From: Thermosipho atlanticus DSM 15807
GTDB lineage: Bacteria > Thermotogota > Thermotogae > Thermotogales > Fervidobacteriaceae
Reading direction: 5' to 3'
NCBI RefSeq assembly: GCF_900129985.1
Contig: NZ_FQXN01000003.1
Span: forward strand, 1-64,000
DNA length: 64,000 nucleotides
The notes under the pieces are model-generated. The model searched no databases and was not told the DNA's origin. It saw nothing but the letters and a program-made list of their open reading frames with translations. Below are positions 30,869 to 32,578 of the stretch, piece after piece; positions within the stretch are counted from its first letter, which is position 1, and the number at the start of each line of letters is the position of its first letter. A program made the position numbers and the translations under genes.

Positions 30869-31795
30869 TTACATCCAATTTTTTCTTTTAAACCATGCAA
30901 GGGTAAGCATTATAGTACTTATAGACCAAATTATAACATATAAATAAGTGAAAGGATTATTTTGTAAGGGGAGGGCAACATTCATGCCATAAAAACTTGT
31001 AATAATAGTTGGAATTTGCATCAAAATAGTAACCACAGTTAGTATTTTCATAACTATATTTAAATTGTTTGAAATTACTGATGCATACGAATCCATCATA
31101 CCAGCTAAAATGTCGCTATATATATTTGAAACTTCTATTGCTTGCCTATTTTCAATGATAGCATCTTCAAGAACGTCTTGATCTTCTTCATATATTTTTA
31201 AAATATTACCTCTAAGAAGTTTTTCCATCATTATTTCGTTTGATCTTAATGAAGTAGTGAAATAAACAAGACTTTTTTCAAGATACATCATTTCTTCAAG
31301 TTCTTTGTTTTTCATTGATCTATGCAGTTCTTCCTCGATTATACTGATAGTTTTATTAACTTCTTTTAAATAACCCAAAAAAACCTTTGCATTTAATAAG
31401 AAAAGTTGGAAGATCATCCTGCTTCTTTTATTTATTTCAAATTTACTTTTTTCTATCATATGTTCAATAAAGTCAATAGGTTCCCGGGTCGAAAGAATTG
31501 TATAATTTTTTCCAATGATGATACCCATTGAGACAGTTCTATATGGAATTTTTGAATCACCATTGAATTTTTTGGGGATTTTAAGGATTACTAAAATTGT
31601 ATCTTCATCGATTTCGATACGTGCGCGTTCATCATCATCTAGGGAGTCATATATAAAATCTGGATCAAACTGCAAAAGGCTAGAAAGCATGTGAATCTCA
31701 TCTGCGGAAGGATCAATAACTCTAATTAGTGAATTTGGAACAAATTTTTCAACTTCCACTATCTTGTTATCTTGTGTGGTGTAAAATTTTACCAT
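30869..31795 (-). CDS. corA: CorA-family magnesium transporter
   Basis: CorA (308 aa) is a homopentameric Mg2+ (or Co2+/Ni2+) channel of the inner membrane. It has the long acidic cytosolic domain, with a coiled helix around residues 150-240, and two C-terminal transmembrane helices. The first helix ends in the selectivity motif YGMNV (about residues 270-274). A basic tail KRKNW closes the protein. The start is ATG at 31795 behind AGGAGGTA. A short proline-ended ORF with its own strong ribosome-binding site sits 23 bases upstream and may control expression. Confidence 0.93.
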   Translation of the reverse strand: MVKFYTTQDNKIVEVEKFVPNSLIRVIDPSADEIHMLSSLLQFDPDFIYDSLDDDERARIEIDEDTILVILKIPKKFNGDSKIPYRTVSMGIIIGKNYTILSTREPIDFIEHMIEKSKFEINKRSRMIFQLFLLNAKVFLGYLKEVNKTISIIEEELHRSMKNKELEEMMYLEKSLVYFTTSLRSNEIMMEKLLRGNILKIYEEDQDVLEDAIIENRQAIEVSNIYSDILAGMMDSYASVISNNLNIVMKILTVVTILMQIPTIITSFYGMNVALPLQNNPFTYLYVIIWSISTIMLTLAWFKRKNWM

Positions 31796-31818
31796 AATTT
31801 TACCTCCTTTTTTTAAAT

Positions 31819-31878
31819 TTACGGTGGTCGTGGTAAAGGTTCATCTGAATAACTACTAGTATAACTTTCACTACTCAT
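31819..31878 (-). CDS. 19-codon leader peptide upstream of corA
   Basis: ATG at 31878 is preceded by AGGAGGTG (31887-31894) with an ideal eight-base spacing, so this ORF is very likely translated. The 19-residue product begins MSSESYTSSY and ends SDEPLPRPP, directly followed by TAA. Two acidic residues then four prolines in the last six positions, with Pro-Pro before the stop, resemble the enterobacterial Mg2+-responsive leader peptide MgtL (EPDPTPLP). Slow translation here would place a ribosome just before corA. A six-base pairing between TTTACC within the ORF and GGTAAA at the corA ribosome site is possible. That it senses Mg2+ is inference. Confidence 0.6.
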   Translation of the reverse strand: MSSESYTSSYSDEPLPRPP

Positions 31879-31909
31879 CCTTTTTTCACCTCCTAGATTA
31901 GTTTTTTTA

Positions 31910-31918
31910 ATTATACCA
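31910..31918 (-). promoter_or_regulatory. corA promoter (extended -10)
   Basis: On the minus strand the sequence is TGGTATAAT, an extended -10 element. The predicted transcript start near 31903 leaves about 9 bases before the leader-peptide ribosome site. The -35 region (TTATAT) is poor. Confidence 0.5.
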
Positions 31919-31930
31919 TTTATAACTTTT

Positions 31931-32578
31931 TTATATAATACATTCTTTAAAACTTAATTTACCGTTTTCAAAAATTAAAAGTTCACCTTTTTTGACTTTT
32001 TTGAAATGAGTTCCTAAAGCCTCTGACGAAACTATGTTGTCAGAGTACCACATAGTGTAATATTCAGGTTCACTTTTAAAATAACAAAAAGCATACAGTT
32101 TATGTTTTTTTATTAACAAAAAATTAATGCCACTAAAATCATTGGTGTTAATAAAATCTTTCAGTTTTTTAGCTAGTTTTTCGATGCTATTAAAATCTCT
32201 AATTTTTAAAAAGTAATCATAACTATCACTTTTAAATATGTTATTTCTGGGAGTAGTATATATTGTTCCATTGTGACAAAACGCGTTTCCATATTCATCA
32301 AAAAATGGATGAATTTGCAAATACCCAATTGGAAAATTCGGTGAAGCCTTTCTTGCATGCATAATTCCGAGTTTAAATTTTGGGAAGTCTACATTTAATT
32401 CGTAGATTGGTTCTTCGAATTTGTGATATAAGATTTCTTTATTTTTGTTTTCTGCATATATCCCAAAACCATGTTTATGTGGACTTTTAATTCCATTTTT
32501 GGCCATGTCTTGAAGCATTTTAAATAACTCATTTATCGACGTATCGTCCTCAAAAGAAAAACCAATCATTCTACACAT
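31931..32578 (-). CDS. class II glutamine amidotransferase-like protein
   Basis: This 215-aa protein resembles YafJ-type class II glutamine amidotransferases. The N-terminus MCRMIGFSFED would expose Cys2 as nucleophile after Met removal. The family sequence HGFGIYAEN, the MHARKASP run (about residues 84-91) and HPFFDEYGNAFCHNGTI (about 99-115) form the glutaminase site. No acceptor domain is fused, so the ammonia acceptor is unknown. ATG start at 32578. The next gene upstream ends nine bases away. Confidence 0.85.
   Translation of the reverse strand: MCRMIGFSFEDDTSINELFKMLQDMAKNGIKSPHKHGFGIYAENKNKEILYHKFEEPIYELNVDFPKFKLGIMHARKASPNFPIGYLQIHPFFDEYGNAFCHNGTIYTTPRNNIFKSDSYDYFLKIRDFNSIEKLAKKLKDFINTNDFSGINFLLIKKHKLYAFCYFKSEPEYYTMWYSDNIVSSEALGTHFKKVKKGELLIFENGKLSFKECII

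Follow-up and report, generated by a model that had tools for sequence, protein, structure and literature searches.

An acidic, proline-ended leader peptide conserved in front of corA in Thermosipho and other Thermotogota

Ribosome-based sensing of Mg2+ through acidic, proline-containing leader peptides is known from Enterobacterales. Here, a short open reading frame (ORF) with such residues is described in front of the Mg2+ transporter gene corA of Thermosipho atlanticus DSM 15807, within a 64,000-nucleotide (nt) stretch (contig NZ_FQXN01000003.1, positions 1 to 64,000) referred to below as the window. Early acidic and proline residues pause or destabilise ribosomes in MgtL, AceB and others, an effect counteracted by EttA (PMC11282234). 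Proline codons of the type CC[C/U], which are sensitive to m1G37, are a feature of mgtL (PMC6335274), and the translation of mgtB is controlled by acidic residues of the 8-residue peptide MgtQ (PMC8092293). Translation of corL and mgtL is inversely related to the expression of corA and mgtA; bL31 is needed for Mg2+ control of mgtL translation, and high Mg2+ is thought to help translation of the leader (PMC11552253). The corA motif RNA is confined to Gammaproteobacteria (PMC6429828). Release at a C-terminal proline is inefficient, EF-P does not improve it, and clades without RF3 show a stronger depletion of such ends (PMC7246954). In the open-licence literature searched, leader peptides before corA had not been reported for Thermotogota or Bacillales.

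The leader ORF of the window has 19 codons and, as translated from the minus strand, runs from an ATG at 31878 to a TAA at 31821-31819. Residues 11-19 read SDEPLPRPP, with D12 and E13 as the acidic pair, and thus lie inside the first 30 residues of the peptide, not at its start. The locus is made up of the following features, in order of transcription.

31918-31910, minus strand: extended -10 promoter-like element, TGGTATAAT, read by eye and from conservation
31894-31887, minus strand: Shine-Dalgarno (SD) site of the leader, AGGAGGTG, read from the sequence, 8 nt before the leader ATG
31819-31878, minus strand: leader ORF, MSSESYTSSYSDEPLPRPP, stop included, by translation; conserved in 16 genomes
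31819-31845, minus strand: conserved core DEPLPRPP-stop, comprising the acidic pair, prolines and Pro-Pro at the stop, from a pattern search
31796-31818, minus strand: spacer of 23 nt from the leader stop to the corA start, 20-27 nt in relatives
31802-31808, minus strand: corA SD site AGGAGGT, read from the sequence; not sequestered by RNA structure in predicted folds
30869-31795, minus strand: corA, 308 amino acids, the presumed controlled gene (Pfam PF01544, 1.9e-51), with its ATG at 31795

A preliminary description of this locus had placed the ORF, its SD site, the -10 element and the 23-nt distance correctly to the base. It had also seen no terminator in the leader, and a terminator scan of the leader region likewise found none. 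A sigma-70 promoter scan scored no site at the leader.

An order-wide search recovered the same corA (84-91% identity) from eight other members of the family, and all nine family genomes with this gene carry a leader ORF with an SD site and the end [DE][DE]PL[PS]RPP-stop. Outside that group, most genomes of the order have no such corA or at best a distant version of it, so the Fervidobacterium-like and Thermotoga-like genomes were unsuited to the comparison proposed in the preliminary description. A degenerate pattern for [DE][DE]PLxRPP-stop, run over 103 Thermotogota genomes with the reversed pattern as control, matched exactly one site per genome in 16 of them, and the control had no match in the 103. 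All 16 sites lie in front of corA, 20-27 nt before its ATG. Seven of the 16 genomes fall outside the family and belong to one genus of another order, which we take to be Marinitoga-like; their leaders read MDYFSCSEDPLSRPP-stop or nearly so.

The conservation has the form expected of selection on a protein. The ratio of nonsynonymous to synonymous variation (pN/pS) over the last ten leader codons is 0.17 among the nine relatives (this genome included), 0.04 among the seven Marinitoga-like genomes and 0.27 across all 16, and variable columns at codon positions 1, 2 and 3 number 3, 2 and 10 of 11. The 20 nt directly before the corA ATG vary in 18 of 20 columns among the nine and in 15 of 20 among the seven. 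Leader ORFs are 15-19 codons long and differ by whole codons; their N-terminal half is free to vary, and conservation is concentrated at the C-terminal end by the stop, where the acidic pair and Pro-Pro-stop are both present in 16 of 16. The GGAGG of the corA SD begins 8-15 nt past the leader stop in these genomes. Upstream, the leader SD GGAGGTG is invariant or almost so in the nine relatives, and TGGTATAAT or a TGATATAAT-like element precedes the leader in most relatives. One relative (G026) lacks the promoter-like -10 and has its leader directly behind the upstream gene, yet the leader is retained; the ORF, and not promoter spacing, is therefore the conserved thing. Judged from these patterns the leader ORF is no chance occurrence, and selection at the codon level suggests that it is translated. 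The preliminary proposal of a proline-ended acidic leader peptide before corA is borne out by the pN/pS values and codon-position columns, and conservation in relatives with the same corA, which it had named as the check and whose absence was to refute it, was found in 16 genomes. That corA is preceded by a conserved cis-acting leader is highly probable.

The likeness to mgtL drawn in the preliminary description holds in part. Like MgtL, the peptide of the mgtA leader in E. coli and Salmonella, this is a short acidic and proline-containing ORF before a Mg2+ transporter gene, and ribosome destabilisation or pausing, the proposed sensor in MgtL, is likewise proposed for the corA leader; it is not, however, a member of the MgtL family. 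In MgtL the acidic/proline stretch lies at residues 2-9, with the motif EPDP at the start of the peptide, whereas the Thermosipho leader has its acidic/proline stretch at the end. The mgtA leader is long and structured and has alternative folds or a Rho site; here 23 nt separate the two ORFs, and neither a terminator nor excess RNA structure was found. The transporter is a P-type ATPase in one case and CorA, in a different phylum, in the other. The proline after the acidic pair is encoded by CCT in 11 and CCG in 5 of the 16 genomes, and the terminal two prolines are CCA/CCG in 15 of 16; a codon sensor of the mgtL type was rejected because CC[C/U] codons are not conserved in the 16. The corA leader fails three tested features of MgtL, namely the motif at the start, the CC[C/U] codons and the structured leader.

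Other described leaders share single traits with this locus. MgtQ, from the mgtB leader of Salmonella, likewise has acidic residues in a very short ORF and exerts translational control (PMC8092293), which is predicted here; it works by release of a hairpin at the ribosome-binding site, whereas the window has no such hairpin and the corA SD is largely open. Predicted folds place a hairpin of that kind in the Kosmotoga/Mesotoga-like and most of the Bacillales corA leaders described below. CorL and the corA motif RNA also include a leader ORF before corA, but CorL works with a structured 5' region and Rho-dependent termination (PMC11552253), and here there is neither an Rfam match nor excess structure. 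Compared by architecture, the corA leader belongs to neither the MgtL nor the CorL family, and the likeness is at most one of analogy. Slow peptide release, predicted here, is common to TnaC, terminal-proline arrest peptides and SsrA tagging at a C-terminal proline. In terminal-proline arrest peptides the last residue before the stop is a conserved proline, as it is in all 16 genomes and in three further leaders introduced below (G051, G098 and L076). TnaC requires tryptophan, a requirement not apparent here, where arrest is predicted at two prolines preceded by acidic residues.

The window corA encodes the only full CorA of the genome. Its GMN motif is intact, the solved protein chains that it matches are CorA proteins, and it matches TIGR00383 at 5.3e-37, under that family's curated cut-off. 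Since no MgtE was found in this genome, CorA is probably the main route of Mg2+ entry, as judged from a search of the CorA and MgtE classes. EF-P and bL31 are encoded, and no RF3 was found above the family cut-off; matches below it probably represent other translational GTPases. Upstream of the leader, the gene at 31931-32578 (minus strand) encodes a class II glutamine amidotransferase-like protein (Pfam GATase_4, 4e-06), and most of the nine relatives have a similar sequence in that place.

Leader forms looser than that of the 16 genomes were seen when corA was searched in the rest of the phylum and the upstream regions were read. The leader of G051 is MESASNTEIPLRPP-stop and that of G098 is MDSSSSSKDVVSLPP-stop, both ending in Pro-Pro-stop, and the distance from stop to ATG reaches 30 nt in further compact leaders beyond the 16. 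The regions upstream of corA in six genomes of family f3 and in G049 and G062 hold no leader. A scan of a genome collection with a CorA alignment located MDCFNCDDDSKYKPP-stop 29 nt before corA in a metagenome-assembled genome (MAG) labelled Fusobacteriales (L076). The CorA of this MAG is 66% identical to that of the window and its leader ends in Pro-Pro-stop, pointing to transfer or misbinning.

RNA folding separates these compact leaders from those of the Kosmotoga/Mesotoga-like family (f9), which read MELYSSEGDLPP, MELYSSESDLPP, MEIYSSEGNLPP, MELYSSESEPPP, MELYSSESEPPL and, in one case, MDIYSSESAMPN. The corA SD of the 16 compact genomes is predicted to be largely open, with an unpaired probability of 0.37-0.93 at 37 C and 0.63-0.91 at 65 C. 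The minimum free energy (MFE) of the leader region is not below that of shuffles in four of the five genomes of Thermosipho or Marinitoga type tested (z = -2.5 in G027), and this genome has no excess RNA structure over the leader region. The window leader has no Rfam match up to E = 1 and no known riboswitch (M-box, mgtA RNA). In f9 the corA SD is buried in the folding model (probability unpaired 0.00-0.42), and in the consensus fold the anti-SD that can sequester it pairs with the SD of the leader itself. Since one anti-SD fits both sites, either could be hidden, and use of one start site might preclude use of the other; this shared element lies 70-130 nt upstream of corA in loci L050-L063. 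With a ribosome masked at the leader stop, just 2 of the 14 f9 cases modelled have an open corA SD. As modelled, there are two architectures: a compact one, as in the window, with no RNA structure and the stop near the corA SD, and one in which an anti-SD sequesters the corA SD, as in the Kosmotoga/Mesotoga-like genomes.

The Bacillales corA genes from the scan of the genome collection have a distinct but related design: their leader ORF spans about 32-48 codons, carries EP(D/E)P early in the peptide and stops 15-56 nt before corA. One filter for an early acidic-proline upstream ORF retained 17 of 26 Bacillales loci, 0 of 46 other corA loci (L084 onward, without Bacillales) and 1.4% of shuffled regions. 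Just past EPEP lies GAGGAAGYC, complementary to GRCTTCCTC, which also pairs with the corA SD GAGGAGG; in the resulting 2:3 and 3:4 pairings region 2 is GAGGAAGTC and region 3 is GACTTCCTC. Both pairings are complete or almost so in most of 12 aligned Bacillales sequences, two rows of which were misaligned by the program, and the folding model closes the corA SD on the free mRNA in most Bacillales cases. The layout matches that of a translational attenuator, and loss of the ribosome at EPEP would be expected to make the corA SD accessible; the EP(D/E)P leader with mutually exclusive pairings is a candidate Mg2+ translational attenuator. Loci with both elements, about 130-180 nt upstream of corA, include L143, L137, L126, L129, L099, L152, L096, L098, L140, L145, L092, L134, L122, L144, L149 and others. 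The corA and leader of L096 (JAGGRA010000025.1), which is titled Pseudomonas sp. ISL-84, group with Bacillales in the tree, and the label is probably wrong. A third design may be present in two Clostridia loci (L088 and L093), where a leader ORF starting MDEGP(S/G)LY is found about 130 nt before corA; such MDEGP leaders are not captured by the early acidic-proline filter. A common short frame, MPEPDPERNLSDDLEFVE(M/T/L)GR, lies 246 to 180 nt upstream of corA in three Methanoregulaceae/Methanolinea MAGs (L114, L120 and L151).

All compact leaders fall in one well-supported clade of the CorA tree (20 of its 28 rows), within which f3, G049 and one archaeal MAG have lost the leader. The other half of the tree holds the hairpin (f9) and Bacillales leaders. 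Leaders of both halves are alike in style, with a Ser/Tyr-rich start followed by acidic residues and then proline, a likeness that could reflect either common origin or convergence. Transfer of corA and leader between the Thermosipho and Marinitoga lineages was considered, since their CorA proteins are about 70% identical, and was then dropped: the Thermosipho-type CorA groups with its own order (f3) in the tree, and vertical descent with losses is therefore enough.

The best overall explanation is that a cis-acting nascent-peptide leader sets corA translation, functionally like MgtL and MgtQ; we give this explanation even chances of being correct. Its first and most confident step is that the ribosome would slow at the acidic/proline end and at Pro-Pro-stop; action through nascent-chain effects on the ribosome is likely. 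A ribosome with the stop codon in its A site would next cover about 9-12 nt downstream and exclude the corA initiation complex, so that efficient leader translation would keep corA low. In the third and least confident step, low Mg2+ would destabilise ribosomes on the acidic/proline stretch, which would leave early, free the corA site and allow more CorA to be made. An initiation complex reaches about 20 nt upstream of the ATG. The footprint of a ribosome extends about 12 nt downstream (PMC4833913). Since the leader stop lies 20-27 nt from the corA ATG, a stalled ribosome and an initiation complex should exclude each other, which would favour repression by a slow-terminating ribosome; occlusion in preference to activation is a tentative choice, falling a little short of even. 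That Mg2+ is the signal is slightly more probable than not. The on/off logic would be as reported for MgtL and CorL, but without RNA switching or Rho.

The main alternative is translational coupling, whereby the leader would load ribosomes that reinitiate at corA and raise CorA without any sensing. A strong leader SD, a short distance and an open corA SD would suit it, and such a role has been proposed for leader genes near structural genes (PMC4833913). However, the distance of 20-27 nt from stop to ATG exceeds the reach of about 12 nt that the same work assumes for reinitiation (PMC4833913), corA has a perfect SD of its own, and the conservation of DEPL(P/S)RPP at the amino-acid level would be left unexplained; coupling is unlikely. 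Arrest at Pro-Pro-stop in response to another signal, such as EF-P activity, the charging of prolyl-tRNA, the state of the release factors or a divalent metal other than Mg2+ that CorA carries, appears equally improbable. In its favour, no element of the compact group is more strictly conserved than Pro-Pro at the stop, making RPP takes both a Pro-Pro bond and a release step at proline (PMC7246954, PMC8129111), and CorA proteins are able to carry Co2+ and other metals. The acidic pair is as conserved in the 16 genomes, however, and its recurrence in lineages whose leaders lack Pro-Pro ends points to the acidic/proline combination used in Mg2+ leaders. A functional micropeptide acting in trans, for example on the CorA protein, would account for amino-acid conservation always adjoining corA, but not for a length and an N-terminal half that vary freely while conservation sits at the C-terminal end by the stop, nor for the fixed distance to corA and the RNA elements controlling the corA SD that related lineages add; it is very unlikely. 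An RNA switch had been suggested in the preliminary description, by pairing of TTTACC in the leader ORF with GGTAAA at the corA start. The pairing is possible and has a predicted probability of 0.46-0.58 in this genome. Across close relatives the value ranges from 0 to 0.77 and is near zero in several, the start-side copy gives 0 in all Marinitoga-like genomes, and the MFE comparison with shuffles given above offers no support in four of five genomes. The pairing was rejected as not conserved among relatives, and the RNA switch, largely refuted, is extremely improbable.

Control by a nascent leader peptide is in turn supported by the recurrence, in the window group, f9 and Bacillales, of an apparent link between acidic/proline leaders and corA translation. 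Several observations weigh against it. The acidic pair stands at residues 12-13 and not at 2-5 as in MgtL and MgtQ, and the sequence does not fix whether the effect on corA would be up or down. Some relatives with 53-58% identical CorA carry no leader, and several Mesotoga-like leaders end in PPL or MPN, so that the Pro-Pro end is not universal. In G050 (L048) the same frame as in G051 ends in EMPTRPP, and its start has changed from ATG to ACG. The ACG could mark a decaying leader, a sequencing error or a non-canonical start.

The corA leader is a real and conserved feature, unreported in the open literature that was searched; its mechanism and signal are what we infer. Acidic/proline leaders that make the ribosome the Mg2+ sensor may be common to corA genes in two or more phyla (Thermotogota and Bacillota/Bacillales, perhaps with some Clostridia), a generalisation put forward as doubtful. 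The compact form would then be the simplest version, without an RNA switch, in which a ribosome parked at Pro-Pro-stop blocks the corA site or drops off in low Mg2+. If this is true, enterobacterial mgtL and mgtQ are one instance of a much wider principle. Similar leaders, conserved as peptides, before corA in Thermotogota and Bacillales suggest that ribosome-based Mg2+ sensing is widespread, of ancient origin or the product of repeated invention. Three natural variants are available for comparison: the compact form without RNA structure, the hairpin with a shared anti-SD and the 2:3/3:4 attenuator. Control by slow termination at Pro-Pro-stop would have a minimal model in the compact form, which would also give a handle on how thermophiles watch the Mg2+ that their ribosomes need.
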